Of a DNA stretch of 64,000 nt, positions 20,811-44,799 are shown piece by piece (within the stretch, counting starts at the first letter, position 1; every line of letters starts with the position of its first letter). This DNA is from Mesodorylaimus sp. YZB2_4. Its lineage: Eukaryota; Nematoda; Enoplea; Dorylaimida; Dorylaimidae. Location: contig JASANH010000855.1 of assembly GCA_030248295.1 (NCBI GenBank), forward strand, positions 62,001 through 126,000, written 5' to 3'. Below the pieces are notes generated by a model. That model was not told the DNA's origin, searched no databases, and saw only the letters and a list, made by a program, of their open reading frames with translations. The position numbers and the translations under genes were made by a program.

Positions 20811-23507
20811 TCATGCACCAGTCTCCTCGACCAAGGTGTTATTTGCTCGCGGACTCATCCGTGCATCTTCCATCCTCCTCGCGGCCGTTCTCTTGGCCCT
20901 CCAGTTGACCCATGTCACGTAGGCCAGCAAGTAGAGCAGCTCCAAGCCAGTCAACAGGCTGGCCCCGCACCACAGTCCCAGTTGGCCACCGATGTTCGAC
21001 ACCTGGAAAAGGAAGCATTGAGGGGTGGGTGGGTGTGATAGGAGAGATTACCATGGATGCCCAGGTGTAGGTGGGTATCTCCTCGTAGACCAGGATGCCA
21101 TCGTCGACTTCGTAGTAGAGCCAGACGACAATCGGGTCCACATCGAAGGCCGTGTAATTGATGGGGGTGGCGGTGAGTGTGAATTCGTAAGCGTAGTATT
21201 GGCACGGATATAAACACGAGGATATGCACTTTTGGTAAGGTGCCTGAGCTGGGGGGCAATCGATGTTCAGATTTGGTTGTGCGAACCAAGAACACAATGC
21301 GGAGGGGGGCACTGACTCGATGCGGGTATGTTGGGTAAGGAGAGTACAATTGTGGCACATCTCCACTGCCTGCCCGTAGCATTGATGGCGACAGTGTTTG
21401 TGCGTGTAGTTGTGTCCGAGCTCTCGTTCGGGTGGCACGCACGGTCGGGTCTCCGTGTTCAGATTCATGTATCGCTTGGCCGATAGGCGGATGGTGGTGA
21501 CTCGATTGCGACGAATGTTGATACGATCCTTCTCCAGCACCACCCGATGGTCGTTGCTGATGACCAGGAAGTCGGTGTTCATCGAAGCAGGTAGAATGGG
21601 GGCCAGAGAGGGTTTTTTCATTTCGTAAGCCAAGTAAAAAGCGTCGCCGATGTTTGGAATATATTTGGAGACTTGGGCTTGGAAACAGATCCGGTATGGA
21701 ATCGGCTCGCCGTCGTAACTGGGGTCTGAAGAGAACGAGATCAAAGTTGAATTCGAGAAGGTCCATTTCATGGTAAAGTTAGGTTTCGTGTCTTTTCAAG
21801 CAATGATGTCAATGACAAGTGATGATGGGGAGACATATCAGCGGAATCAGTGATGGGGATTGTGGATTATATCAGTGATAAGGAGCCTCTCGAAGGGATG
21901 GTAAGGGTCAAATGTGGCTAGGAATGCCAAGTCTGTGGGATCTGGATCAAAAGACACCCCTGAGGCAGCCTGAGCCGTGGCGAGAGGAAGAGCATTGTTG
22001 ATTTTCCCTTGCTGGGAGAAGTCACCCCTTCAGTTTGATGTTTCAGCGGCAGGTAGCCGAAAGACTTGCCTGCTTGTCCGACATTCTCTCCTTCGTTTGC
22101 CAGCAATGATCGCAACAAGATTGGGTAAATACAGATTGACAGAAAATGTAGCTGCCCCAGGTTATTGTCAAATCGATTCAAGGACAGGCTGCAGGTTACC
22201 AGAACATGCAGTGCAGGGTGCAGGGAGCGAAAGTAGCACATACTCGTACCTTTCTTTCAGATAAGCATACCACTTTGCACGGCCAGAGAGCCATGATTGT
22301 TGTGCTCATCGTTGACCCAGCAATCTGCACGGGTCAGTGATTTTAGAGGGTAATTCTTGCCATGGACCCCTTGTCAGTCACAAAGAAGTCAAGACAGCGA
22401 GAAAATACTGAGGACTGACTGGGAATCGAACCCTCGCCCTTCGCCCACGTTCAATCTTCTTTTGATGTTAAAGGATAAATCCTAAGCTAACAGTCAAGTC
22501 ACAAAGAAAAACCTAAGGACTGACCGGGACTCGAACCCTCGCCCCAATAAAGCGCAGGTGCAAATTTCTTTCCTCCACCTCAAGAGCGAGTGTCCTGGCT
22601 TGGTTCGATTCCCACTCAGGCCTCATTTTGTAAGAAGAGGTAACTCACTGGCCACAAAGACAGGTGGAAAAGTTAATGGAACGCTGGGTTCATCGCCGAC
22701 GACGTGAGTGAAGTTGAAAGCGAGCCATTTATAGAAGTCAGTGTAAGTCTTGAATTGACCATTCCTGAGGACTTTGTTCAATTCTACTTCAGCTTTGGTT
22801 AAGTCCACGCTATCGGCGATTGAGCCTGGCTTTTGCAGGAGAGAAGCGGCGTAGGTGAGTGCTTGGTTGGAGAGACCAGCTTTTTTCAATTTTTCCATGT
22901 CCAAGCTATATCTACTGCAGAAATATATATTCGGGTAAGCGTAGGTGTCTTGCTCGACGGCGCTGACCTGAAGTGAGACAAGGATGTGGCTGGCCGTGAC
23001 TGGCTGCAGTGCTTTGCGACAGAGTGCCCACCATAGGCATACCCACTTGACCAGTGCTACCCTATCACTGCGACAGACGCCTTGGTCTGTGGCCTAGCGG
23101 TTAAAGCGGCTGTCTCTCACGCTGAGTGTGCATTTAAAGGGAAGGGTTCGACTCCCGCCTGGGCGAAAAATCATCGCCAAATATGTGTCCCTTAGCCAAC
23201 TTGGCGATGAACAAAGTATATGACATGATCCGGCAGACCACTCCTAAGCGTGGCTACTGTTACACAGAGAAGACTGTAGGGTGACTGCACTCACTTTGGT
23301 GGCCGTTGGTTGGCTTTGGAATTCAGTGATAATCTCATAAATATAATATCCAGCCGCGCATAATCCACCCAAAAACAGTGAAAACCAAAATAGCTTAACA
23401 GTTTTTGATCGAGATTGGAAAACGAATTTGAGCGCATGCACGTCGACTTGTTCCAAGGCTTCGTTCAACGTCAGCAATCGAAGCTGACCTCCGTTCTGGC
23501 CAGCCAT
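20811..23507 (-). CDS. DEG/ENaC-family sodium channel, paralogue 2
   Basis: Second degenerin/ENaC-type channel subunit. Minus-strand exons 23507-23295, 22967-22649, 21791-21052 and 21002-20811; 487 residues. Start at 23507 (MAGQNGG); an in-frame ATG at 23543 would add 12 residues. TM1: KLFWFSLFLGGLCAAGYYIY. YPNIYFC matches the conserved post-TM1 element; CRHQCYGQAVEMC and CISSCLYPCQYYAY match the outer Cys-rich domain; SNIGGQLGLWCGASLLTG precedes TM2 and carries the GxS filter motif. Phases agree (0, 1, 0). A 49-bp intron (21003-21051) separates the outer domain from TM2 and is absent from the paralogue. The cytoplasmic tail is basic (WRAKRTAARRMEDARM). It lies head-to-tail with the other channel gene, about 1.9 kb apart, which indicates tandem duplication followed by strong divergence. 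Confidence 0.92.
21965..22110. repeat. hairpin-core dispersed repeat in DEG/ENaC-2 intron
   Basis: GAAGTCACCCCTTCAGTTTG followed by ATGTTTCAGC, then GACTTGCCTGCTTGTCC and a C-T-rich end. The same family as 13795-13925, degraded. Confidence 0.5.
22400..22620 (-). repeat. two antisense tRNA-like (SINE) fragments
   Basis: GGAATCGAACCCTCGCCC (about 22410) and GGGACTCGAACCCTCGCCCC (about 22508) are reverse complements of a Pol III box B (GGTTCGANNCC). Each follows AAGGACTGACYGGGA. They lie 100 bases apart in an intron of the channel gene. No cloverleaf could be drawn. Confidence 0.6.
23085..23200 (+). repeat. tRNA-derived SINE-like copy, family A
   Basis: Box-A-like TGGCCTAGCGGTTAAAGCGG and box-B-like GGGTTCGACTCCC are 60 bases apart, followed by CCTGGG and a CAAATATGTGTCCC tail. 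The same tail follows box B at 26450-26480 and 59755-59800 and a CAAATACGTGTTCC version at 6580-6620. Acceptor ends do not pair, so it is not a working tRNA gene. Confidence 0.7.
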
Positions 23508-26571: not shown

Positions 26572-29500
26572 ACGTTGTCCTCGACGACCATTTCCTCACC
26601 GCCAACAATGACCACGCGTCGGCATTGCGAAAACGGGTACAAGGTGGTCAGCGTAGTTCGCACTGATCAGTCAGCTGATGTGTACCAGTGCAGACTGGAC
26701 GAGGGCCAGACGTGCTCTGTGCGCAATCAGTGCGAAAGGAAAGTGGTGACCAGTGGAAAAGTGAATGCGGAGAAGGCGGGCCTGGGTGGGTACTGAGTCT
26801 GGGCATCACACAAATATTACAGCCTTTCCATTTCAGGAAGTAGATCGGTTGGAAAATGTATCCCTTTAAGTGACGGTCCATGTGCAAATATTTCGGGCAA
26901 TCAGGCGAGACTCGTGGCATCGGCGGACAGGTTCGATCAGATAGTGACCAGGATGCGGGTTCGATCACGAGCTGATCTGGAACGGGTGTGCCACTTGGTG
27001 TACCCCACGTGCACACAGAATGGATTCGTGCCCCTGTGCAGGTCGGTGGGACTGGAGATGGGGATGAGTGTGATGGATGGCAGTTTCAGGGAGGACTGTT
27101 ACATAGTGCAGTACGGATATTGGCAAAGGTGGTCAGTTCTCGTTCGATACTTGGCCGATCGATTTGGTCAGGGTCTGTGGAAAGGGTGCGCACAACTGCC
27201 GTCGGTGCTGGACGAGGGTGCGCAGTGTCAACAGACTTCGAGGAAGGGGTTTCGGAAAGAGAAGGCCACGACGAATTGCTACAGGGAGAAGGATCGGCAT
27301 TATTTGGGTGTGGTGAACAGGACGGCCAGTGGATACGTGTGCCAGAGGTGGGATAGCCTGGTAAGGGTGAAGAGAACAATACAGTTTGCGTCCAGCTGAG
27401 GCACAAAGCCCTTCCGGCTCGTTCCTTGAACAATGTCAGTGCCAGTGTTAGGCTTTTGGGTGTGTATGAAAGGTTCATCATGCCAGAGAACTGTAGGCCA
27501 AGGCCACAGGTATCCCCCTTCAGCTTTGGGCACATCTTGGTCTTCAAGCACCGTCAGTGCCAGTGTCAGGTCTGTAGGCTGTGCATGAAGGGCTCATCAT
27601 GCCAGAGAACTGTAGGCCAAGGCCACAGGTGTCCCCCTTCAGCTGTGTGCATATCTTGGTCTTGGAACACTGTCAGTGCCAGTGTTAGGCTTTTTGGGTG
27701 TGTATGAAAGGTTCATCATGCCAGAGAACTGTAGGCCAAGGCCACAGGTGTTCCCTTCAGCTGTGTGCATATCTTGGTCTTGGAGCACTGTCAGTGCCAG
27801 TGTCAGGTTTGCTGGGTGTCTGACTGGAGTTGTTCATTCAGTGCCCCCACCACCACGACTACTGGCCAGAACTGTACCCCGAACTAGACCAGGCCGAGAA
27901 TTATTGCCGGAATCCACGCGGGTTGCAATCGAGACCATGGTGCTACACGACCGAGCCGACTGTCCGCATCGCCTTCTGCACGGACATTCCACCCTGCCCA
28001 GTCGACCATGATACCTTGGTGGCGAGTCAGACCCCGACCAGTACCACCCTGGTGCTGGCTGTGGTTGGTGGCCTGCTCTTGGCTCTATGCAGCACAGTTA
28101 TTTTTGTGTGCAGACGAAGGGCATCGAGGGCCAAAGTCAGGCAGCGACACTGCACTTTGGACTCGGTGCGCTACGACGGGGGGGAGGAGACGGTGGTGGT
28201 CGGCATGCCGGCCAGGCAAGCAGAACGAGAGCTGTCCATTTCGAATATTCCACAAAATGAACTCTACTTCCTGAATGAGAGAGGCATCGATCGACGTCTC
28301 GAACCACTCGAGGTGCCCAGATCCAGTTGGACAGTGATCGAGAGACTGGCACATGGAGAAAACAATGAGGTGTTTTTGGTGAGTGCTCATGCTGATATCC
28401 ATCAGAAGATCGATTAGGCCACTGTTCAGACCGGCATTGGCTAAGATTTATTGGCTTTGATGAATATTGATGATAATCTAATTATCGATTGATCGATACT
28501 CCACATCGATTGATTAGTGAAATGTCATGACCGTATCAGGTTCCACGGATGGCTGCTGATTATGCGCTATGATGAGATCGATATTTCATCGAGATCGATA
28601 TTTCATCGAGATCGATATTTCATCGAGATCGATATTTCATCGAGATCGATATTTCATCGAGATCGATATTTCATCGAGATCGATATTTCATCGAGATCGA
28701 TATTTCATCGAGATCGATATTTCATCGAGATCGATATTTCATCGAGATCGATATTTCATCGAGATCGATATTTCATCGAGATCGATATTTCATCGAGATC
28801 GATATTTCATCGAGATCAATTGATCTCTATACCATTGATTGGTTTGTGAAAAATGCATCACAATGTCAAGGTCCATGGATGACTTCTGATTATAAGCCAT
28901 GACGAAATCGACATTGATCGAGATCGATTGATCTATGCTCCCATTGATTGATTTGGGAAATATGACGATATCACACATTCATGGATGACTGGTGATAAAT
29001 GTCTAATCGCGGAATCGATAATTGATCGAGATCGATTGTCGATCCCGATGAATTATCGATCCCGATGAATTATAGATTATGTCAGAGCGCCCCAATCACC
29101 AGTCATCCATGGACGCTAGTATGGTCATGACAGCTCACAAATCAATCAATGAAGTATCGATAGATCAATCATTAGATTATCATAACTTATCATAGAGATA
29201 AAACTGATCATTCGATGCAGGTCAATTGACTTGAGCATCAGGGCTGGAAATTTAAAGTTTATGCGATGGTTTGATGAGATTCAGGCTCACTTTTGTGATC
29301 ATTGAGTGTGGTCATCAGTGTATTCCTGTGAAATTGCTATGGTTTCAGGCCCGCCCTTGCGCCGACATGGCGGCAGCGAGTAGTCGTGGTCTACTGGTCG
29401 TCAAGATGTTGAAGCATCGAGGTTGTGGTGACAATTGCCTGTTCGATAGTTTTGTGCAGGAGGCGTGCGTGGTGGCCAGTTGCAGGCACCATCGCATCGT

Positions 29501-30687
29501 CGACCTATTGGGGGTGTGTCTAGTCACCCAACCGACCTGCATCCTGTTCGAGTGGGTGCCGTTGGGTGACCTGAAGTCCATACTCGAGGCCGAAGTGTCC
29601 GCCCATTGCGACCCTGACCAAGCCAAGAAACTGGATCGGATTCGTAAAAAGTGGGACCCGCCGCTGAGACATCCGAAGAGGCAGGTCGACATATGCTATC
29701 AGGTGTCGGACGGAATGCTGTATCTGGGCAGTCAGAGGATCGTGCATCGGGATCTGGCTGCGAGGAATGTGCTGGTCGATGACAAGTTGCAGGTAACATG
29801 GCTCCTCTGCTGGACACTCCCCCCGTCTGTTGTCTGTAGTCAATGCAGAGCCCCAGTCAGCCCCCTCCCCCAGGGCAGATGCTTGCCGCCTTGTACAGCG
29901 TATTACTGTAGTCGCCTCGGCTGGCCCTCCAGGTGAGGCAGAAACCCGTCGGGTTGATGTTTCTGCCTCTTACGAATAGAAGGCCTACCTGACTGACCGA
30001 CTAACTTCACTGAACCAAAAACACTTTGCAGCCCATCCCACTTTTTTGACTGACTATCTACTCCCCGCTGTGCCTTCTTTAATTGACTAGTCAGACTATT
30101 ACATTTGTGGCCAGGCCACCTTCACAATTACTTGGGACCCATCCAAAATCACTGAACACCCAAGTCCCGCCCTGCATCTGGTGCTAAGGTACTATGCCAC
30201 TAAATTGCCCGGGATGGGAAATCGCAGGGCTTTCCTGCAGTTGACTGTTCCCACTTTTCCCATTTTTCAGACCAAAATATCTGACTTTGGTCTCTCGAGA
30301 CGTGTGGCTTGTGTGGGTGGTGTCCACGTGGGCGGTGAGGACGAACGACTTCCAGTGCGATGGACGGCGCCCGAGGCCTGCTCTCGACGTCTGTTCTCAT
30401 GCAAGTCGGACGTGTGGTCGTTCGGAGTGCTGGTTTGGGAGATCCTCTCGCTGGGCATGCAGCCCTATGTGGGCCTGAGTCATCGAGAAGTAGTGGATAT
30501 GGTGGTCAACCACAAGCAGACACTCTCCCTTCCGACACCGGCCGATGGGGGTGGTGAGGTGGTTGACGGGCGGGACATAGGGGAGGGCTTGATGATGCCC
30601 TGCTTCGCCTACAGACCAGAAGACAGGCCGGAGTTTGTCGAGTTGATGTCGACAGCTGCCAGGTTGAGGGAGATGTTGAGGAAGTGA
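26572..30687 (+). CDS. ROR: ROR-type receptor tyrosine kinase (CRD, kringle, TM, kinase)
   Basis: Exons 26572-26785, 26837-27360, 27842-28378, 29349-29792 and 30271-30687; phases agree throughout and give 711 residues without the N-terminus. Residues about 75-160 form a frizzled-like Cys-rich domain (GKCIPLSDGPC, VCHLVYPTC, PLCRSVG). A kringle at about 220-298 is split by an intron: NCYREKDRHYLG, GYVCQRW, then YCRNPRGLQSRPWCYT. TM about 314-336 (LVLAVVGGLLLALC) is followed by RRRASRAK. Kinase: LLVVKMLK lysine, [43 protein letters not shown]. Frizzled-like CRD plus kringle plus kinase is diagnostic of ROR or the related MuSK; ROR fits best. Odd points: the glycine loop is degenerate (LAHGENNEVF) and the activation loop between DFG and APE has no tyrosine. 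RORs bind Wnt ligands and often act with weak or no catalysis. Confidence 0.88.
27428..27825. repeat. tandem repeat of about 120 bp, 3.3 copies
   Basis: TGTCAGTGCCAGTGT recurs at about 27434, 27553, 27670 and 27790, and CATGCCAGAGAACTGTAGGC at about 27479, 27598 and 27717. The copies are very similar, so the expansion is recent. It sits wholly inside the intron that splits the kringle domain of ROR. Its open frames are by-products of the repeat. Confidence 0.85.
28480..29200. repeat. ATCGAT-rich intron with three direct and one inverted unit
   Basis: A block containing CCATGGATGACT(T/G)(C/G)TGAT and ATTGATCGAGATCGATT recurs near 28540, 28870 and 28980, and in inverted form near 29090-29160 (CACCAGTCATCCATGGACG). 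The 17-bp array 28574-28811 is nested in the first unit. ROR intron 3, no coding role. Confidence 0.6.
28574..28811. repeat. perfect 17-bp minisatellite, 14 units
   Basis: GAGATCGATATTTCATC is repeated exactly 14 times (238 bases). The unit holds the palindrome ATCGAT. As 17 is not a multiple of three and no frame of the unit contains a stop, the array reads as a long artificial open frame. It lies in the intron between ROR exons 28378 and 29349. Confidence 0.97.
29920..30180. other. ROR kinase intron with hairpin-core repeat fragment
   Basis: The intron 29793-30270 holds GAAACCCGTCGGGTTGATG, the palindromic core seen at 13805 and 34076-34143, with otherwise unique sequence to 30270. No coding signal is seen. 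Confidence 0.45.
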
Positions 30688-30869: not shown

Positions 30870-33800
30870 TCAGTAGGCCAGTAACTGACAGCACTTGGCG
30901 AACACCCAGTTGATCTGTACGCACTCGTAGCCTTGGGGGCACATCAGGTCGGTGCATGTGTCGCCGAAAAATGGGTCGTTCATCCAAGGACGTTCCGGGT
31001 TGTAGATGCTGTAGTGAGCCTGTCCGTTTGGGCATCGTTGCGAGGTGACAGCGTAGGCGTTGCCATAAGCGTCTGCAATATTGAGGGGGCATGGTCAGGG
31101 ACCTCACTCACTTTTAGGTACTGCGGGGTGAGGGGACTGGTCGAGGACAGGACAGGGCAAGCTAAGAAGGCTATGAAGTTGCTTGCAGCTGAAACCATAT
31201 TTTACCTACCCACGCCAGCGTATGACAGAGCTGCCATGCGGCTGCTTTTTACTATATTCTTTCGAATTCAGAGTCGCCCTCTCTGCAAACTGGTAGTTGT
31301 TTTTTAGCAAAGGCGACAGGTGAGTAAAATATGGTTTCAGATGCCGTGCTCTGCTGAAAATGGTGGATATGGTGCATGGCTTGGAAATTTTGCTTTGAGC
31401 AGACCTGAGACGGGCTGAGGTGGCTAGTCGAGGGCAAGGCAAGCTGAGAAGGATAGCCGCCTTCGCAGCTGAAACCATATTTTACGCACCCGACGTAAGT
31501 GTGTGGCAGATCTGCCATGCGGCTGCGTTATGCTGTATTCATTTCGAATGTAGTTGGATGTAGTCGCCCTTTCTGCGAGACTGATAGTTAGTCTAGTAGG
31601 AAAGGCGACAGGTGAGTAAAATATAGTTTCAGATGTGGTGCTCTTTGCTGCTTATGGTGCATGGCTACCTTGGACATTTTGCATAGGTCTGACTGGAAGT
31701 GCCACACTGTTGCACTGGTGGGTAAAATATGGTTTCAGTTTAGGGAACGAAGGTGTGACCTACCTTGGACGATGGTGTTGCAACACTCTGGTGACGGTGG
31801 GTTCGTATCAGCCATGTTGCACTGGTAGTACTGTGGACATGTCAGCTGACTGCAGTCGGTGGCCTTTCCACTGGGATCCACGATCGGTGGCCACGTGCCT
31901 GGGCAGGTCGATGCTTTGGCTGTCAAGTAAGCAAGTGTTATTTGGGTTTAGTCTTGGCTCTGATGCTTGCTTACGTCTTTTGCAAGCTCGGCTGCACTGC
32001 CACCAGGAAGTGTAGGGATAGTCGGGGTATGGTCCGCATCCGTAGTACGTGTACGCCATGCACTCCTCCAGCACTCGATTGTAGTACCAGCGAGTGACTG
32101 GTTTGTTGGCGGCCTGGGTGCCGCACTGACCAGTCAGTTTGCCCAGGTAGCACTTGGGGTCAGGAGGACCGCGTTCTTCCACAATGAAGCCCCCATAGGC
32201 TGTATGCAAAGCTGAAAGGGTGCACGTAGGCCTTTGGAATACTTTCCTTTCGTCTTGGCAGTTGCACTTTGACGGTTCGAGTCCTGCTGGGCTCTTTTAT
32301 GCCGCGCCCTCGATTGGCACGGGTGCATTGCAGCAGGCAGCAGTGTAAGACCTGAATCCATCTTGAGTGGACACCAGAGCTTGTTGGGAGCAGGCAGATA
32401 GTCCATGTTGACATGAGCCACTTTCTCATGGCACACTGTTCTGCTATCCTGACCGAAAACTTGTACCATGAGTGGGATTTGAACCCCTTCTGCTAGATCT
32501 AGTCCGCCTCTGACCACCTCTATCAGAGTTTTATATATTGCAGAGTTAGAATAGAAAGAGACAAACAGGGGTCAGGACCAATGCCAACTGACCCATGTGG
32601 TCGATGAGGAAAGCACGTCCCACCTTGTCTTTGGCCAGATTTGGAATGGAGTGTCCACAAAAAAGGGCTGTTGTGTGTCCTAGCCTGTGACTGGTGATCG
32701 ATCATAGAGAGACAGTGGCGGGTCAACTAGTCATCTTGATGGTTTACCAGTTCTTGACCTGAGTATGATGAGGCCTTGCCTTACAGCAGTCAATCTTTGA
32801 CTCAGGGAGACACCGTTCTGCAGTTGAGGACTTACCAAGCATCCATACCATGCACACAGTGTTCGACATCATTCCTTCTACTCGCCAAGATTGTACGCTG
32901 GTCTGCCCAAAAAGCACACGCGCTCTCCTTTTATGGTCATGCACCAACATTAACTTTTTTGACTTTGTGGACTGCTGTTTTATTTTTGACAGAACTCACT
33001 ATTTGATGGTGCCGTCAATCCTGGCTTGTATCCCTCACTTGTAACCCCGGGGGGAAACTGTTTTGGTTGTCTTTATGTTAACCAGTTTTGGGAATGGATT
33101 ATGTCCAGGAAGACACCCACTGATTCTTGCTCACCGAGTAGTTACATAGAGTTGGCATCCTTGACTTCACAGGAATCATACACTGGGTCTGTTCAAATAC
33201 ACAAACTTTCCTTTTATGGTCATGCACCAACATAAACTTTATGGAAACTTTACGACTCCTGATTTACTGTGCTGGTTCTAACAACCTGTTTTCTGACAGT
33301 TGGGTTGAGAAGGGGCATAAATGGAGTATATTATGCATAAAATATGGGAGAGAGCAATAGAAGTCCAAATTGAGTGCATCGTGCCAGCGTCGGGCTGCAA
33401 GTAAAAGGAAGGTCCACCAGAACACTGCCCTGATGCGGAATCAGACAAATACAGGCTGACTGGCATCATGTCTGACTCGATGCTGAAACGGAAATAAGAC
33501 TGAAAAGACTCGTCAAAAATATAAAACTTTAGCCTTGAGTTAGATTCGAGCTCGCACCAAGGTGGTAATCCAGTGGGGTGTAATGGTGTAGTAGCGGTTA
33601 GAGTATGCTGGACTGATAAGCACAGGTGCGAGGGTTCGAACCCTACTCATGGTTAAAGTTTTTGAAAAGCCAGGAGTGGACTAAAAGCATGTATTTACCA
33701 GGAATGGTCAAGCAGAGCTTGAGTTCGGCCATTTGGTCAAGGCTGGTCGTGTTTAGAGTCTGAAGAGACAAGTTGTCAGCTTGTAATCATGAGCAGCCAG

Positions 33801-35631
33801 GGGTACCTTTTCGATGGCGGAACCTGATGGCATATTGCGTATTCCAACCATGATAAGGCCATCGGACAGGGGCTGGCTCGCACCGAACGAAGCGAGCAAG
33901 TAGGTCGTGGATTGGGACAAGCTGCAAAAGGCAGACAGGTGCGAACGACACTGATATGGGACTGCAATGTAACAAGCCCCAATGCGTGTGTTGCCTCACT
34001 GCCTGGCGAGGGAGATAACCGATCCCTCTGGTCTGGGGCTAAAACATCAACCTGAATATCCCTCTGGTACTGAAACATCAACCCATCGGGGTAATGTTTT
34101 AGCACCAGGTGCGTCCCAACATCAACCCGTTGGATTGATGTTCCAGTCGCATGACTTGCCTTGCCATTCGGGTTAGTTGCATTCTCTCCTACGCCTGCCA
34201 GGCGTAGCACACGCAGCTAGTAGCGCATCAAGCTATGTCATACCTGCAGCAGGTCATTCCAAGGATGACTGTGTGCAACGGCTTACCGCTTGATTACATC
34301 GCCGATGGTCAGGACCACCACTGCTCGCCCGTCCGGAATGCTACTCAAAAAAGTGCCAAGCACACGCTCGTCTGAAACATCAATTCGTGAAGAGTGAGGC
34401 CCAGCAGTGTCCCCAAGTCACCTTCTGAGGATGCATCAAATACGACGACCTTATCGACTGATATTTGGGACTCTAAGAAACGGTTGTCCTGTAGTGGCAA
34501 GAAGTCAGTGGGACAAGCAGAGCATACCATCGAGAAGGACGATCAACAGGCCACTTCTGATGGCCAGTGAGGATTCAGGCACGATGCTGAAAAGGGGTCT
34601 TGCTTGGTGAGCACACTCACACTTCGGCTTTGGTGGCAGAGGGGGTTTCGACTGGTGAGGGTTCAACTCCCGCTCAGGGCATTCTTTTTGTAAACCTGGT
34701 CAAGGCTGAAAAGGAGTCTTGCTGGGGTGGACACACCTTCACATTGTTGGCTCCCTCGCCTTTGGTGCGTGGTGATGCAATGGGATCCCCTGTTTCGCTA
34801 GGGATTCGACTGTTGAGGGCTCAACTCCCGCTCAGGGCATTCTTTTTGTAAACCTGGTCAAGGTTGAAAAGGGGTCTTGCTGGGGTGGGCACACCGTCAC
34901 CTTATTCAGGCTCCCTCGCCTTTGGTGATAGAGAGTACAGTGAGATCCCCTGTTTCGCTAGGGATTCGACTGCTGAGGGTTCAACTCCCGCTCAGGGCAC
35001 AGTTTTTTTTATCATGCTTGCCAAGGCTGGAAAAGGGTCTTGCTACGGTTGGCACACTCACACTAGTCAGGCTCCTCCGCCTTTGGTGATAGAGAGTGCA
35101 GTGGGATCCCCTGTTTCGCTAGGGATTCGACTGGTAAGGGTTCAACTCCCAGTCGGGGCATAGTTTTTGTATTTTGGCAAGGTTGCGGCGTGGTATTCAT
35201 ACTTCCTTGTCATAAGCAGCTTTGCGCGCGAATTCAAATTTTCGAATTTACCCATATGGCATACCCAGCAGACCCAATCTGCACCCACTTACATCTTCTT
35301 ATTCACGCACAGTCGAGTGCACTGGGGGCACACGAGCGAGACCCGTGCCACCAGGGCCAGTGTCCTGTTGGCGGGGCATGGATTGAGAGCACACCACGCA
35401 TCACTGGTCTCCTCACTTATGCCATCTAAAATCGAGTCCAGTGCGAAAACAGCAGACTCGGCCTGTCTAGCACCTACCAATCGGGTCAACGAGAATAGTC
35501 CTCAGGAACATAAGCAGTGCGGCCGAGAGGACCAATGCACTCGGCACAACCAACAGTTCTAAAAAGTGTTATAACTTGCAAAAAAGTGCAAATAAAAACT
35601 CGACCCACATACTTGGAATAACACGCAACAT
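30870..35631 (-). CDS. FAM3/ILEI domain - Kunitz - lustrin-like cysteine domains, secreted or membrane-anchored
   Basis: Minus-strand exons 35631-35613, 35558-35478, 35425-35293, then a gap where one small exon is missing (phase 2 to 0), 34488-34422, 34371-34287, 33921-33807, 33759-33699, 32211-31975, 31919-31764 and 31072-30870. All other junction phases agree. The start MLRVIPKLLVV begins a hydrophobic signal or anchor (SALVLSAALLMFLRTIL). WCALNPCPANRTLALV..C matches the FAM3 N-terminal CxxxxxCP pattern; VDKVVVFDAS, FLSSIPDGRAVVVL, LASFG...LIMVGI and LCLTIP follow the ILEI domain to its last cysteine. Next comes a Kunitz domain (KCYLGKLTGQC, RWYYN, YYGCG, CSRACKR; six cysteines), then two Cys-rich modules (CPQYYQC...CC; CPQGYECVQI...KCC) like nematode lustrin domains. 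ILEI/FAM3 proteins are secreted cytokine-like factors and Kunitz domains inhibit serine proteases. The combined role is unknown. Confidence 0.82.
31189..31340. mobile_element. CTGAAAC...GTTTCAG MITE, 152 bp
   Basis: Left end CTGAAACCATATTTTACC and right end GGTGAGTAAAATATGGTTTC followed by AG are near-perfect inverted repeats. Inside is a second pair, GTCGCCCTCTCTGC and GCAAAGGCGAC, so the transcript could fold. It lies in the last intron of the FAM3-Kunitz gene. Confidence 0.85.
31469..31632. mobile_element. CTGAAAC...GTTTCAG MITE, 164 bp
   Basis: Second, adjacent copy: CTGAAACCATATTTTACGCA at the left and GAGTAAAATATAGTTTCAG at the right, with internal GTCGCCCTTTCTGC / GGAAAGGCGAC. It is similar to the element at 31189-31340 along its length. 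A lone right end (GGTAAAATATGGTTTCAG) follows at about 31720-31738 and another precedes them at 30811-30828. Confidence 0.85.
32465..32545 (-). repeat. antisense tRNA-like fragment
   Basis: TGAGTGGGATTTGAACCCC reads on the minus strand as a box-B-like GGGGTTCAAATCCC. It sits in the long intron 32212-33698 of the FAM3-Kunitz gene. Confidence 0.45.
32850..33260. repeat. direct duplication of about 285 bp
   Basis: The word CCTTTTATGGTCATGCACCA plus flanking sequence occurs at about 32929 and 33210, each followed by ACAT(T/A)AACTTT. The copies are diverged. Intronic, no coding signal. Confidence 0.6.
33580..33665 (+). repeat. tRNA-like SINE head with T-run terminator
   Basis: TGGTGTAGTAGCGGTTAGAG resembles box A and GAGGGTTCGAACCCT resembles box B, spaced as in a tRNA and followed within 15 bases by AGTTTTTG, a possible Pol III stop. 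The ends do not form a seven-pair acceptor stem, so I call it tRNA-derived rather than a tRNA gene. Confidence 0.55.
34005..34205. repeat. compound hairpin-core repeat
   Basis: Holds three successive versions of the core: AAAACATCAACCTGAATATC, GAAACATCAACCCATCGGGG and CCAACATCAACCCGTTGG running into ATTGATGTT. It then carries GACTTGCCTTGCC and GCCTGCCAGGCG. It lies in an intron of the FAM3-Kunitz gene. Confidence 0.65.
34600..35165 (+). repeat. tandem tRNA-box-bearing repeat, about 3.3 units of 175-185 bp
   Basis: Each unit has AAAGG(G)GTCTTGCT, a (C/G)GCACAC segment, CGCCTTTGGTG, GATCCCCTGTTTCGCTAGGG, ATTCGACT and the box-B-like GAGGGTTCAACTCCCGCTC, then AGGGCA and a run of five or more T. 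Box B positions are about 34656, 34817, 34976 and 35138. The order suggests a tRNA-derived unit amplified in tandem. It lies between exons of the FAM3-Kunitz gene, where one small exon is still unaccounted for. Confidence 0.8.
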
Positions 35632-37595
35632 AATCGAGTGGGATTTCGTGCAAACGGCAACACCGAGTCACAAATTCTAGCTAAGACTGCACACAAGACA
35701 AGCCTGTTCCAACACGACAGGTGGCCAGGGTAAACACAAGTGGTCACCCGGGCGTGTCCCCCAAAACACATTATGCACTCCACACAAAAACCAATACTGC
35801 ACGCTTAAGGCAAATATGCATGTCTAATACACAGTCAATAAAGGCGAGTCAAAAATCGATATGTACACAATATTACTGCAGACAACATACAAGGCGCAGA
35901 TAATGATTTTCCCCGATTCCAAAGTTCCCCACAAAAATTTGAGTTTCCCAGCAACTTCAACCAATTCCAACCGACTTCCAGCTTGATCATCAGGCTGCCA
36001 GAAATGGCGGGAATTTGAAATTTGAAACTTAAAACTGCACTTGATTCCGACATTCCCTTCTCCCTGACTTCCAGGATGCTCCTCTCCTCGTTTTCACATT
36101 CGCCCATCTTCAACCAATTCCAACCGACTTCCAGCTTGATCATCAGGCTGCCAGAAATGGCGGGAATTCAAAATTTGAAACTTCAAAATATCCTTCAGTT
36201 TTCCTTGATTTTGATGCCAAATTCCCATTTTCCTGACTTGCAAGCTGACCCAATTTCCCACCTTTTACGAACCTGCACTCCGACAAGGCGATCGCCCACA
36301 ATCAAGTCCAGGCACAAAATACAAAAACACATAAAAAATAATATTTTCCAAGCCAAGTGACATTGCAAACACGCTTTGCTAAGACACCTTTTCAGGGCCC
36401 GTAGTCATCTCCAAAAAAAACCAAATATCACCTGTGTTTTTCAACCCCACAATTTTTTTTATTCTATCACAGGCCAGCACAACTAATAAAAAAGTCAAAA
36501 AAATTTATGTTCCTGCCTGGTATTCAATTATTAATTCAAAAAAAGCAAATTTTTTGCTGCCTGTTATTAGAACTCATTAAAAATCCACCAGAATTAAAGT
36601 AAAATGCATAATCGAATTTGGTTTTTCGAAAGAAAAAATTAATTAGGTCATGTAATCAATTAATTAGGTCATCCAATTAATCAATTAATTAAGTCTTCTA
36701 ATTAATCAATTAATTAAGTCTTCTAATTAATCAATTAATTAGGTCATTCAATTAATCAATTTATTAAGTCATCTAATTAATCAATTAATTAGGGCATCCA
36801 ATTAATCAATTAATTAAGTCATCTAATTAATCAATTAATTACTTCATTTAATTAAGTAATTAGTTGGCTGGGTGTCATCTAAATAATTGCATTTCCAATC
36901 GAGATCTGATTCGACAAAATTCGATGATTTTCCGAGGGATTAAAAAATTGATCAAAATACAATTCTGAAAAATCCAAACGATTCCAATTTTTTGAGATTG
37001 AAATTGAAAAATTTGGATCTAAAAAGTTGGGATTTTGAGATTTCTCCACCGCCTCACTCGAAATTTTGAATGGAATTCATCGAATTCTTCCTCTGCTTTA
37101 ACCTCAACCGATTTCAGATGACTTCTAGCTTGATTATCAGGGAAACTGAAAAGGCGGGAATTCGAAATTCGAAAGATCAAAATGCAACTTTCATTTTCCA
37201 TTGATTTCTGGTTTTTCAAATAAAATTTTGCAATTTGAAAACAATAATTTTCTCAAAAGATTTTAATTGGGAGATTTCAAAAAATTCAAAAGGTCCTAAA
37301 AAACTTCTAGCATTTTGAAAATCGATCTCTTCAAAAACATGATTTTAAAAATGCAAATTTTAAAAATCCCCACTTTAAAAATTTAATGCGCTGAAAATGT
37401 ATGATAAAAAAATTGTTCCTTTGAAAAAATTTTACTTCGAAAATTCAAAAAAAAGGAACCTTCAAAAAGTTTAAAAAATTCGGTTTCTCAAAAAAAAACA
37501 TCTTGAAATCTTTTCCTTCTCAAAAAACTTCCTGATCTCACTTTTCTCAGATCTTTTTGAATTCGCGTATTTTCCCGCCATTTTTCCCATAAATT
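35632..37595. other. intergenic region, change to AT-rich DNA
   Basis: No gene recognised. Two near-identical blocks at about 35955-36015 and 36110-36190 share CAACCGACTTCCAGCTTGAT and GCCAGAAATGGCGGGAATT; a weaker copy is at 37115-37195. From about 36400 the DNA becomes strongly AT-rich. Confidence 0.6.
36640..36860. repeat. 25-bp AT-rich minisatellite, about 9 units
   Basis: Unit GTC(A/T)TC(T/C)AATTAATCAATT followed by AATTAA, with the palindrome AATTAATTGATTAATT formed across units. Strictly periodic with few substitutions. Confidence 0.9.
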
Positions 37596-40500
37596 TTACG
37601 AAACGTAAAACATTGATTTTTGACTAGAATCAATTTGCAATTGCGCTTTTTGCACTTGCTCTGCCGTCAATTTAGTTTTTGGCGCTCGATAACTTGCTCG
37701 ATTTCTTCTCATTTCCTCTTCATTATTCGTAGCTTCAGTCATTTTTCTTCGTCCATATTCTTCGTCTTCCATTTTCTCACCTCGACGACTCGGCACCGAA
37801 CCCGATCGTCGATTTAATTCTTTCTTTTTTTCACTATTTTTCAATCCGATAGGTCGTGGAGGAACGATTGGTCGCGATGGGACCACAATCGATTCTAATC
37901 GATTTTTCGTCATCGATATCGATTTTTTCTCATAAAAAACACCATCCACTTTTGGCACATGCACATTTCGTAATTTCTCCAAAGCTAATTGACACGATCG
38001 ATATGATTTTTGTAATCGATTTCTTTCTTCGACACGATCGATATTTTCTTCCAATAATTCTTCCACATTTTGTAATCGAGAAATATCGGCTACAAATTTT
38101 TTCTCCAAATATTCGATAGTATCTTTAATTAATAATCGTACAATAACTTTAGGAATCATATCTTCCAATGTACGACATACAATTCGCATATACGATGCGA
38201 TTAGGACCCAAATTATTTCAATTTGCCTTTCTAAATGTGGATCATTCGTGTCCATAATTTGTGCCGATATTGGTTTTTTAATAATCGATGTCATCGATGA
38301 TTTATTCGAACAAAATACACCAACTCGCATAAATCCATTTCTCCAATCATCGAATTGTTCGAATGATGGCGCCATAAAATCTAATCGATTACAATCTTTG
38401 TAAATATTTTGTTTTTCCGATTCACCAATCAATGAAAATTCATTATTTTTTTCATGATCAACAAATTTTAAACGTCCATCAATTAATGGTATTCGATATT
38501 TACATTCTTGCAAAGCCGGATCGACAAACCAAGAAAAATTATCTGGTGTTAAAACGAACCAATATTTATGATTTCTTGATATTATCGACGATGGTGTTGA
38601 AATTGTTAACCAACCACTTTTTAATACTTGCATTCCTGGATTTTTTCTTTCGCATACAATTTTATCGGCCGTACTTTCGGCTGATCGAAATCCAATAAAA
38701 TCTTCGTGTTTAGCATTTATATACGCGTATTCGTAATCCAATAATTCATTGGCTCCGATTCGAGTTCGATCCATTCGATTTAGGATATAATTCGATACTA
38801 ACGATTCGATATGCCTCGCCAAGGCAGGATATTGTTTCATACTCTACAAAAAAATTTATTCATCACAAAACTTATATCCTTGAACTTTATGACTTCATTA
38901 TGTTTGGTAAGTGGGTGGTATATATCTACTTATCTACTGTATAATTATATATATGAAACTACAAGCGAGCCTGTTTTCAAACAGCCAGGTATATGCAATG
39001 TTGTCCACTCCATTATAATCACGAATAATTTTCATATATACTATATTTATCTAAATATGTCATTCAACATATAGAAATAACAAGTATCATTATTTTTAAG
39101 TTAGATATTTGGGTATGCCATGTATATAAATATATACAGATTTATATAACACGAGATGATACAATATTAGGCTTAGGTATTATCAAACATATCTGACCTG
39201 AATTTATACACCAGTGATATATGTTTGATACAAATACAGCAAAATCCTTTGCTACATATTTTGTTATTCTTTGCTGAATAGAAAATATACTGTATACATA
39301 CAGCAAATATAATGAATACATCTTTATATATGTATATTTTTTTAAACGGTTCACGTAAAAACGGATTATATAAATCACAAAATTTTTTTCTGCAATAGTC
39401 AACTATACGCGGCTTACTGAATTCATTGTATAACAAACATTCCCAAATCTAAATTCTCTCTATCCAAATTTTTGCTTTCATGGTGAGGGTTGCGATTAGT
39501 GATTTTGCGAATTCAAAAACCAAATTTATGATTTTTGCTCAACGCAATTTCGAAAAAGTAACAAAGGATTTTTTCTGAAAGTTTTTTGAATACACACAGC
39601 ACATATTAGTTACATAAATCTATTACAAAAAAAATTTGATTTGAAATCGTTTACAAGAAATATTTATTTCAGGAGTACAATTTTAGGATTATTATTATGT
39701 GAATGTAAACATGTTGCACTCTTAGAGTACCATTCTGTATATTATAAATATGTGTTTATATAAGGACACATAATATATGTATAAATATTTAAATATAATT
39801 ATACATATTTGTGTGGATATAAAAGCAAGAAGAAATAAATTTATAAAAGTAGATATCTTTTATATATATATATTATATTTCGTATACATATATTGTATGT
39901 CTGGTATATGTACCTTATATATCTTAGACATAAGTTAAAACTTATATAAACTTATTAGGAATTTATATATTTCATATATCTTATATATTTTATAAACATT
40001 TTATTATTGTATATACAACTTATATGTAATGGCATTAAAACTTAAAAAATTTTTTATATAACTTTTACATCATACATATTTTATACATAACTATAATATC
40101 TTAAATATATTTACTTTTTATCATATATAATATATATCTCATATATAATATATATCTCATATATAATATATATCTCATATATAATATATATCTCATATAT
40201 AATATATATCTCATATACAATATATCTCATATATAATATATATCTCATATATATTATATATCTCATATATTATATATATCTCATATATATCTTAAAATTT
40301 TTTTATATATTTTTCATATTTTATGCGTCCTATATATATCTTATATATTTAAAAAAATTTTCTCGAAATATATATCTACTGCATATTATAAAGTTCTTTA
40401 CTTTATCAAAAACTTTTTCACACATCTTATCCGAAACTTGTCAAGTCAAGTTTTTCACAGTTTCTCCTAAAGCGAAAGGCACCCGCGCAAGTATATTTTT

Positions 40501-43500
40501 TCCCGTCATTTTAAAATTTTAAAATTTTAAGCTAAATCTCCCCTTTTTTTCACCACGCTCACACTTACATCCAAAGCAGTATCGATAGATTTCATCAATT
40601 CCGATGATACCATTTCGATTAATCGCATTGTTGGTTCGCGTAATTTCCCGATTTGTTTTCGTATAATTTGATCGAATGCTTTATCCGGTGTAAATAACGA
40701 CGTTCTTACACCGATTATATTTTGAATAGCGAAACCGATTTCTCGTTTCATTTGAATTTCTTTGGCGAATTCTACATCGGCCAATAATGATGGATATTCG
40801 AAATGAAATAATTTATGAATTTTCGCACCGCACGATAATTTATTATATTTTAAAAAACTATTTTCATTCGTATTTCCCAATAAATCGATCCGACATTCTT
40901 GCGAAAATCGAATAACTGACATTACGAGAATTTTTGCTTTCCAAAACGGATCGTCATAATCCAACAAATTTTCACCAAATCCATCGCCGCCACCAAATTT
41001 TAATGAGTTTAATCGTTTTTCTAAATTCAAACACTGCGAATCGACTTTTGCTCGCAATTCGGGCAAAGTTTCAACGATATGACGAGTTAAATGAAAATGT
41101 AAGGCTTTTCGCAAATATTTCGTGCCCATTCGATCAGAAATTGGCGAATAGGATGGATGGGAAACGAAAAATTCTTCTTCCGATACTAATGCTTTATCAA
41201 TTTCTTTTTGCCCATCGATATCTTTTTGACTACGATTTACAACGCCGATAAAACCGTATCGTAAAGGAAACACCTGAGAAAAAAGTTTTTTTAACACACC
41301 AATGTAATATCCTCAAAAAAAATCTATTAGCTCTTGATTTTTTTACACACAACTCTCTAAGCCTCGATTTTATTATATGCAAAACTAAAATGTGAGTGAA
41401 GTTTTCCAAAAATTTTTGGCTTTGCTAAGATTTGAACCCTGTCTTAATCTTTTGACAACAAATTGAAGCTTATTTTTTCAAACCAGTCTGCACTCTACGC
41501 TACGCGGGCACTGCGAATTTTAAAAATCACGACAATAAAATAATTTCTCCAGCTAATGAGGTGTGAAATATAGTCTCAGCAAACATGTGTAAAATATAGT
41601 TTCAGTAATGATGTGTAGAACATAGTTTCAGTATAGATTTGTAAAACATAGTTTCAGTAATGACGTGTTGAGCATAGTTTTAGTAATGATGTGTAAAAAA
41701 TAGTTTCAGTATAGATGTGTAAAACATAGTTTCAGTAATGACGTGTTGAGCATAGTTTCGGTAATGATGTGTAAAAAATAGTTTCAGTTTAGATGTGTAA
41801 AACATAGTTTCAGTAATGATGTGTAAAACAAAGTTTCAGTAATGATGTGTAAAACAGTTTCAGTAATGATGTGTAAAATATAGTTTCAGTAATGATGTGT
41901 AAAACAAAGTTTCAGTAATGATGTGTAAAAAAAAGTTTCAGTAAAGATGTGTAAAACATAGTTTCAGTAATGACGTGTTGAGCATAGTTTCAGTAATGAT
42001 GAGTAAAAAATAGTTTCAGTTTAGATGTGTAAAACATAGTTTCAGTAATGATGTGTAAAACAGTTTCTGTAATGATGTGTAAAACAAAGTCTCAGTAATG
42101 ATGTGTAAAACATAGTTTCAGTGATGATGTGTAAAATATAGTTTCAGTAATGATGTGTAAAACAGTTTCTGTAATGATGTGTAAAACAAAGTCTCAGTAA
42201 TGATGTGTAAAACATAGTTTCAGTAATGATGTGTAAAATATAGTTTCAGTAATGATGTGTAAAACAAAGTTTCAGTAATGATGTGTAAAACATAGTTTCA
42301 GTAATGATGTGTAAAACAAAGTTTCAGTAATGATGTGTAAAACATAGTTTTGAATTTTAAATTTTCGCAAAAATGTCATTTTAAAAAGCAATTGCAAAAC
42401 TTCAGAAACTTTTTCCTCTATTTTTAGTACCAAACGCAAAATTAGCTGCTAATTTTTTCGCAAAATGCACATTATTATGGCATGTCCCAAAGTTCAAAAA
42501 ATCTCCCACGAATGCAATTTCATCTACTGCAATTCGTGCGAATATTGCAGTATTTCCCAATTTTTTGAAGATAGTAATTTTCCCATAATTTTTTCATGAA
42601 TTCACTATTTCAAAAAACCTTAAATCTTAATAAGAATCAAAATCTTTTTATCAAAAGTACAAAAGCTTTTGCAGAAAAAAGCAATTTTCGCAGCTTTAGT
42701 AGAAAATTTGCAAATTTTATCGATTAATTCAGTGAAAAATGCAAATTTTTACATTTCTTCTCACAGAAATACAATTTTTGCACAATGCAAGATTTTCTCA
42801 TCATTTCTCCAAAAAATGTGAGAGATATCAAAACTTTGCTATCATTTTTGCAAAAAAAAGCGCATTTCTCGTCGCTTTTGGCAAAAGGCTTGATGTTTTA
42901 TAGCCATTTCTGCAAAATTGCTAATTTTTGCAGCATTTAATTAAAAAACACGGCATCCCTTTTCTTTGGAAGACCAATGCAAATTCTTTCACAGTTTTTG
43001 CAAAAGTTGCATTTATCCACCCATTTTCTGCATAATGCACGGATTTCACGATATTTCCACAAAATTGCTACTTTCTTGCTAAAATTGTTCTTTTTGCAGA
43101 AATGCAAAGTTTTAAATTTCACGCCTTGTTTAAAAATGAACCATAAATTTCCCCGTGGTTTGTGGAAGAGACGCAATTTTCCTACAATCTTTAAAAAAGA
43201 TCACGAATTTTCCTTTTTTTTAAATTGCATATTCTATGAAAATTTCGAACCAACATCCAGAAATTGAAAATAGACCTTGTCGAGTGCGGAAAAAATATTT
43301 TCTGCAAGCTCTGCTAAACACAAATGCAAAATTCGCTGTTTGTGCGAGAAACACAAGTTTCTTCCACAAAACTTTGCAAATTATTAGCAAAATTGAAAGG
43401 TTTTTTTTTTATTCCGCTAAAATGCAAAGCTTCCCGCAAGTTTTGCAAAATCGACGCACGGTTTTCAACAAAAAAATTGTGTAAGAGAGATTTAATTTTT

Positions 43501-44763
43501 CTGCAGTTTTTGATGAGCACGAAGTTTTCAGCCGTTTTTTTTCGAAAAACGCAATATGTCCCATATTTCCTGCAAAACCTTTGATTTTACGAAATTTTAA
43601 TGAATTTGCAAACGTAAAATATGGAATTTTTTTATTATCCACGAAAAATGCTTGCTTCCCGCCATTTCTGCAAAATTAAACGTTTCTTTTCCTTATTGAA
43701 AAAATTCAAAGTTCTGAATCAATTTTTCGTGAAAAACGCAATTGCTTTCATTATTTTTCAGCGTTTCTAATGTTTTATCAGATTTTGCGAATGATTACAT
43801 TTTTTATCACAACAAGGAATTTATGCACATTCGCTAAATTTTTCGATTTCCCGCCATTTTCCTTCTTTCAAAATTTTCGTTAAAAAACCATATAATACTG
43901 ATTATTCCAAGAAAAAAAGCTTATTTATGTCGTTTTAGTCAAAGCAATTTGATTCAGCCACATTTGCTGAATTTTTCGATTTCCCGCCATTTTCCTTTTT
44001 TCAAAATTAAAAAAATCTACACACTAAAAAAGGAAAAACGAGGAAAAATTTCTTTCTTTTCTAAACTAACATCTAATCGTAGGCTCCGAGTCAAAGTTAC
44101 CTCATTTTTCAAAATGGCACTAGCATCAGTTCCGGCATCCATTAAATCCAATTTCGTCAATACTCCGATTGTTCTCAGTCCATCGGGATCGACAATTTGT
44201 GCCAATTGCAAGGCGTCGCTGTTGGCCAAATCGGCATTGGCCGGAGAAACGGCCAAAATTAAACAATTGGCGGGTTCGATAAATTGTAAAATCAATTGTC
44301 GAATTTGTACTTCGATATCGGGCGGCTGATCACCGATCGGCACTTTAGTCATGCCGGGTAAATCGATCAGGGTCAAATCGAGGACTCGATTGCTATAAAT
44401 TCTCAAATGAATCGGCGACGACGACAAGCCTTTATTATCGCCGCAAACACGAGCAGTTTCCGATTCGATTTCGCGTCGAATTTCATGAAAATCATAAAAT
44501 TGATGATTTCTTTTATGAAGAAATTCGCCGTATTCACCATCGATTTCATGACGAATTAATTGTAAAATCAATGGTCGACGTGTAACAATTCCTGAACCGC
44601 GAGGTAAAAAATCTTTCCCGACGATATTTTCTAAAACTGAACTTTTTCCAGCGCTTTGACAACCGACGACGGCGATTTGAGGTAATTCGAGTGCGAAACG
44701 TTCGTCAACACCGGCGAATGCGTCTTGTAAATCGTTAACTAATCCGATAAGATCTTCTTCCAT
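37596..44763 (-). CDS. DNM: dynamin (GTPase, stalk, PH, GED, short proline-rich tail)
   Basis: Membrane-scission GTPase of clathrin-mediated endocytosis and synaptic vesicle recycling. Minus-strand exons 44763-44101, 41273-40569 and 38843-37596, all phase 0; 871 residues, close to the usual 830-870. The ATG at 44763 follows a splice-acceptor-like TCCTGCAG, suggesting a spliced 5' UTR. GTPase: P-loop GCQSAGKSS, switch [38 protein letters not shown]. Exon 2 resumes with [12 protein letters not shown] and covers the stalk. In exon 3 a PH domain starts at LKSGWLTIS, the GED has [15 protein letters not shown] and the tail is basic with only PPRP-type sites (VPPRPIG), so the proline-rich region is short. 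The second residue of the P-loop is Cys where most dynamins have Gly. Introns are large (2.8 and 1.7 kb) and repeat-filled; the gene is AT-rich like its surroundings. Confidence 0.97.
38880..40500. repeat. AT-rich dynamin intron with 18-bp TATATCTCATATATAATA array
   Basis: Most of the intron 38844-40568 is A and T. Between about 40119 and 40290 an 18-bp unit (TATATCTCATATATAATA) is repeated about nine times with slight slippage. No coding or RNA signal is present. Confidence 0.85.
41554..42350. repeat. 26-bp minisatellite derived from the MITE end
   Basis: About 30 units of TAATGATGTGTAAAACATAG followed by TTTCAG. Variants differ mostly at AAAACA(T/A)AG, and some lack three bases. The core GTGTAAAATATAGTTTCAG, still intact at 41586-41604, 41871-41889 and 42128-42146, is the right end of the MITE family at 10034, 30811, 31320 and 31615. 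It fills 0.8 kb of dynamin intron 1, about 280 bases upstream of exon 2 in the direction of transcription. Confidence 0.92.
42350..44100. other. remaining dynamin intron 1, AT-rich
   Basis: Long A/T-rich stretch with recurring GCAAAATTG, TTTTTGCA and AATTTTGCAGAAA-like words in loose order, suggesting an old degenerate repeat. GATTTCCCGCCATTTTCCTT occurs twice (43846-43865 and 43979-43998). No exon was found; exons on both sides join in phase. Confidence 0.5.
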
Positions 44764-44799
44764 TGTCAACTGCAGGAAAAAAGTTTAGAAATCTTCAAC

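Follow-up and report, generated by a model that had tools for sequence, protein, structure and literature searches.

Two adjacent genes favoured over one fused protein for FAM3-like and Kunitz exons that lie in series

A chain of ten exons on the minus strand, running from 35631 to 30870 of a 64,000-nucleotide stretch of DNA (hereafter the window), places a FAM3/ILEI-type domain directly upstream of a Kunitz domain and two cysteine-rich modules. The first-pass annotation joined these into a single reading frame, raising the question of whether the locus encodes one fused protein or two neighbouring ones. The exon chain itself is real: all ten exons can be traced, the nine introns between them are all bounded by GT and AG, and the phases agree at eight of the nine junctions, the single clash lying between exons 3 and 4 (35293/34488), just as had been described. 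Eight of the introns are 47-804 bases long; that between exons 7 and 8 (33699-32211) is the longest, at 1487 bases.

Exon 1 (35613-35631) carries the start codon and ends in phase 1, exon 2 (35478-35558) encodes a hydrophobic signal anchor, and exon 3 (35293-35425) encodes a cysteine-rich N-terminus, WCALNPCP...RLCVNKKM, ending in phase 2. The mean hydropathy of the anchor over 19 residues is 2.22 and WCALNPCP follows it, which bears out the proposal of a signal or anchor with a FAM3-like CxxxxxCP N-terminus. The phase 2 donor of exon 3 corresponds in position and phase to the intron found after ICINGKT in the second FAM3-like domain (Fam3L2) of L002, a gene elsewhere in the same genome. Exon 4 (34422-34488), starting in phase 0, clashes with it. 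The intervening sequence contains four copies of a repeat of about 160 bases with a conserved 56-base core (34643-35177; repeat families D2 and D3). A stricter scan of this intron found no mini-exon bridging 35293 and 34488; loose rules gave ten mini-exons, those seen lying in or beside the 160-base repeat array, none of which was convincing. The clash may point to a broken or misassembled upstream gene. Further upstream of the FAM3-like exons, a 25-base AT-rich unit is repeated in tandem (36612-36886), and beyond it lies a dynamin-like gene with Pfam matches to GED, PH and Dynamin_N (37599-44784), held within a region at 38-44 kb of about 28-30% G+C, flanked by sequence near 50%.

The FAM3-like domain itself is encoded by exons 4-7. 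Exon 4 ends in phase 1 at FDASSE/D and exon 5 (34287-34371) in phase 2 at DVIKR/L, both as in L002; exon 6 (33807-33921) completes the core and ends in phase 0, and exon 7 (33699-33759) supplies the C-terminal cysteine, in LKLCLTIP, and a phase 1 donor. An ILEI domain in the upstream exons was upheld by the profile check, if marginally: against a curated cut-off of 27 bits, the Pfam ILEI model (PF15711) scores 28.7 bits for exons 4-7 alone and 27.1 bits for exons 1-7. Solved FAM3 structures were rejected as a match for these exons, the searches returning either no FAM3 chain or FAM3C as the last of four at an E value of 1.7.

Closer relatives are found within the genome. Searching all of it with the Pfam ILEI profile gave matches above the cut-off at two places, L001 and L002. 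The window domain is absent from this list because its exons are short, and therefore further such genes may have been missed. Six-frame translation reveals that each of the two loci has a pair of FAM3-like domains and, after them, a transferase-like part; exons here were traced by reading the translations. The transferase-like parts score 26.0 and 36.2 bits against GNT-I (cut-off 25.4), a hand-joined piece of L001 has POMGnT1 as its nearest solved structure (7.7e-07), and the second domain of L001 matches the solved structures of FAM3A, FAM3C, FAM3B and POMGnT1. One genome thus holds two genes of the FAMP-1/POMGnT1 type with tandem FAM3-like domains. The same order, two FAM3-like domains and then a transferase-like part, is given for C. 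elegans FAMP-1 in the accessible text of PMC9802357, according to which FAM3-type domains within larger proteins were already known from FAMP-1 and POMGnT1.

Exons 4-7 align best with the first FAM3-like domain (Fam3L1) of L002, at 41.6 bits and 30% identity over 104 residues, the best of 500 shuffles of that domain reaching 21.2 bits. Scores against the other domains are lower: 30.4 bits for Fam3L2 of L002 (best shuffle 23.5), 27.7 bits for the partial Fam3L1 of L001 (best shuffle 22.3) and 26.2 bits for Fam3L2 of L001 (best shuffle 19.6). The intron positions point the same way. A phase 1 intron at FDASSE/D in the window falls at FDVSVD/D in Fam3L1 of L002, and Fam3L2 of that gene has this intron as well; a phase 2 intron at DVIKR/L coincides with NIFNK/L in Fam3L1 of L002 and is lacking from Fam3L2; and the phase 1 intron after CLTIP in the window lies after CLQLP in Fam3L1 of L002, and occurs in L001 too. 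Of the four window introns compared, only that between exons 6 and 7 is not shared by L002. Chance would very seldom produce three exact coincidences within about 310 bases. Matching same-genome members in both sequence and introns, exons 4-7 are, on these comparisons, to be regarded as a diverged paralogue of the Fam3L1 domain of FAMP-1/POMGnT1-like genes, and the nearest relatives found are therefore multi-domain genes, not stand-alone cytokines. Hence the FAM3/ILEI assignment stands as far as the domain type is concerned, but its kinship is with Fam3L1 and not evidently with a stand-alone secreted FAM3 factor. Like FAM3A-D (ILEI/PANDER), the window gene has a hydrophobic anchor, a CP-type cysteine pair, an ILEI fold region and a C-terminal cysteine; unlike them, it resembles solved FAM3C only marginally (E 1.7, fourth of four), and its domain is closer to Fam3L1 of its own genome in both sequence and introns.

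The FAMP-1/POMGnT1-like genes (C. elegans FAMP-1 is M70.4) share with the window a Fam3L1-type domain and, in L001 and L002, intron positions; the difference is that no Fam3L2 or GNT-I part was found in the window when eight pieces of L001 and L002 were compared with it by tblastn (best E value 0.64), nor did this search give any credible remnant of either. Among viral contigs, one stretch matched a pattern for relatives of the domain and none was confirmed. The available portion of PMC9802357 describes POMGnT1 residues Arg129, Asp179 and Arg207 as contacting GlcNAc, and as conserved in FAM3 members, whilst the equivalents of Asp179 and Arg207 are reported lost from Fam3L1. In our alignment A1, in which positions were placed by eye, these two correspond to Gly and Ser in the window domain, which in this respect too is like the Fam3L1 of FAMP-1 and POMGnT1 as there described; Arg129 has no confidently placed equivalent. 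With Gly and Ser apparently standing in for two of the three residues that contact the sugar, the domain may bind a partner rather than GlcNAc.

The downstream exons are of a different character. Exon 8 (31975-32211) encodes the Kunitz domain, exon 9 (31764-31919) the first cysteine module, both exons being in phase 1 at either end, and exon 10 (30870-31072) the second module and the stop codon. Their coding signal amounts to +41.3 bits over 197 codons; that of exons 1-3 and of exons 4-7 is weak, at 0.1 bit per codon, with exon 4 negative. The six-cysteine Kunitz domain was confirmed, exon 8 passing the Pfam model (PF00014) at 27 bits against a cut-off of 21 with all six cysteines present at a spacing of 8-20-7-13-3. 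The residue following the second cysteine, usually the P1 site, is Gly and not a basic or otherwise inhibitory residue, and the 20-residue stretch exceeds the normal loop length; the matching stretch of BPTI has 15 residues, five fewer. With Gly at P1 and these five extra residues, it is doubtful that the domain is a working protease inhibitor. The suggestion of a cytokine-like fold coupled to a protease inhibitor hence holds for the presence of the two domain types, but the inhibitor is in question.

Likewise, the two modules described as lustrin-like both end in the arrangement C-4-C-5-C..CC, but they miss the Lustrin_cystein cut-off (PF14625), with one stretch of exons 9-10 scoring 11.7 bits (E value 0.33) against 27. 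The presumably secreted protein, with its CP..C..CC modules placed after a Kunitz domain, recalls nematode MLT-11, which has, in the part of PMC13181417 that describes it, a thyroglobulin domain, three Lustrin domains and ten Kunitz domains; by that account the window protein differs in having a single Kunitz domain and modules below the Lustrin cut-off. Convergent with the Kunitz exons, on the plus strand, is a receptor tyrosine kinase (26797-30684), ROR-like by resemblance; a kringle-like piece in it scores 22.4 bits, short of the cut-off of 34.3. Elsewhere in the window are two similar-looking reading frames of the amiloride-sensitive channel type (15792-16718 and 20842-21795), the first of which alone has a Pfam match.

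Whether the two parts are joined depends on the interval between exons 7 and 8. The join from 33699 to 32211 was not borne out: it had been fixed by phase agreement alone, which has a one in three chance of occurring, and the donor at 33699 is compatible with a different join as well. This donor is in phase 1, and its position and phase are kept in L001 and L002. Spliced instead to an acceptor at 33482, it would lead into a candidate terminal exon (minus strand, 33466-33482; placed by acceptor scores and translation) encoding ASSQT and a stop, such that the protein would end CLTIPASSQT, five residues beyond the join. Such a tail would be similar in length to that of human FAM3A, a possible further likeness to FAM3A-D. 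The acceptor at 33482 scores 5.3 bits, more than eight of the nine model acceptors, with 32211 at 2.8 bits; one at 33394 scores higher still, 6.7 bits, and would yield a 43-residue tail. Acceptors of at least 5.3 bits occur at 0.5 per kb on the minus strand over 1-36 kb, giving an expectation for the gap of about 0.75, where two are seen. The motif scan found one AATAAA between 33760 and 32200 (minus strand, 32979-32984), which could be the signal for the FAM3-like gene.

Beyond this, donor score and translation mark a candidate first exon for a separate Kunitz gene at 32836-32872 on the minus strand, encoding MMSNTVCMVWML and ending in phase 1. Its donor scores 4.4 bits, and when spliced to exon 8 it reads MMSNTVCMVWMLALHTA-YGG, a signal-like peptide that has no positive charge before its hydrophobic stretch; codon usage is neutral, at +0.5 bits where the 90th percentile of non-coding sequence is 1.1. 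Of 400 shuffles, 4 gave an equally good match to a first exon, as did 6 of 170 window pieces; looser limits raised these counts to 29 and 22 respectively. The limits were chosen once the candidate exon was already known, and the gap itself is included among the 170 pieces. An alternative first exon at 33379-33286 has a better signal peptide and was set aside for its poor donor (-1.9 bits). Reading straight through 33699, the first stop falls in a tRNA-like repeat. Motifs resembling the tRNA B box (GGTTCRAAYCC) are present at 32475-32485 and 33632-33643, the window as a whole having four where 0.14 would be expected, which suggests that the gap contains short tRNA-derived repeats; ARAGORN found no tRNA genes in the window.

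On balance this evidence tips towards two adjacent minus-strand genes over one fused protein. A fused gene, in which the ancestral donor at 33699 splices to 32211 by class 1-1 exon shuffling to give an anchor, a Fam3L1 domain, a Kunitz domain and two cysteine modules, is possible and distinctly less probable. In its favour, the donor is conserved in L001 and L002, so that exon 7 should lead into another exon, and the Kunitz exon is the next one downstream with a strong coding signal and is in phase; a fusion would predict such agreement between the donor and the coding exon that follows, which counts against two genes. Exon 8 also has phase 1 at both ends, which makes the donor equally compatible with a fusion by exon shuffling, and the first stop past 33699 sits in a tRNA-like repeat. 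The Kunitz exons, moreover, have no undisputed start of their own: the signal-peptide start proposed for a separate gene is not unique, because 33379-33286, with its better signal peptide, is a second option. However, such a splice would bypass two acceptors, 33482 and 33394, that outscore 32211 on both scales, across an intron exceeding the other eight in length, when a matching phase is to be had by chance in one case out of three and a separate candidate first exon exists at 32872-32836. Nor was a precedent found: the open-licence literature searched contained no combination of FAM3/ILEI with Kunitz, Kunitz co-occurring only with lustrin, and leads on FAM3 in oyster and Trichinella came down to a reference mention and unrelated gene labels.

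An improbable further explanation, overlapping neither of these, is that the FAM3-like exons are a decaying FAMP-1-like copy, a pseudogene that merely happens to precede an ordinary Kunitz gene. The unmended phase clash at 35293/34488, the Fam3L2 and GNT-I parts not being found within the window and the weak coding signal of exons 1-7 are all in keeping with it. Yet the other exons are open and their phases match at about 30% identity to the paralogue, when long neutral drift should have erased them, and the cysteines and three introns are retained.

Under the favoured arrangement of two genes, the first would extend from 35631 to about 33466 and be a shortened FAMP-1/POMGnT1-like paralogue that has kept the signal anchor and the Fam3L1-type domain and lacks Fam3L2 and the GNT-I part, the conserved phase 1 donor at 33699 now splicing to the short terminal exon at 33482-33466. 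Its product would most likely be a single-domain type II membrane or secreted protein, probably binding a partner instead of GlcNAc. The second, from about 32872 to 30870, would encode a small, presumably secreted protein of Kunitz and cysteine modules, most likely of the extracellular-matrix type and not a canonical trypsin inhibitor.

Should the fusion be true after all, the domain order would be new, a Fam3L1-type domain having been freed from a FAMP-1/POMGnT1-like gene through the ancestral phase 1 intron and given a tail of Kunitz and cysteine modules, a course of events that we think possible and rather unlikely. Maturation and secretion of mammalian ILEI are described in the accessible part of PMC4303039 as needing serine proteases and as blocked by aprotinin, a Kunitz inhibitor, with plasmin removing the propeptide; a fusion would tether a domain under protease regulation to a Kunitz domain within a single polypeptide. 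Either as two genes or as a fusion, the locus would hold a FAM3-type domain without a GNT-I part in a genome that retains FAMP-1-like genes. In the text available from PMC9802357, nematode FAM3-like domains always precede a C-terminal part, with no nematode gene having an isolated one, and isolated FAM3 genes are proposed to have originated in early chordates. A single-domain derivative of Fam3L1 whose introns are conserved would, provided that the host lies outside the chordates, represent an independent origin of isolated FAM3.
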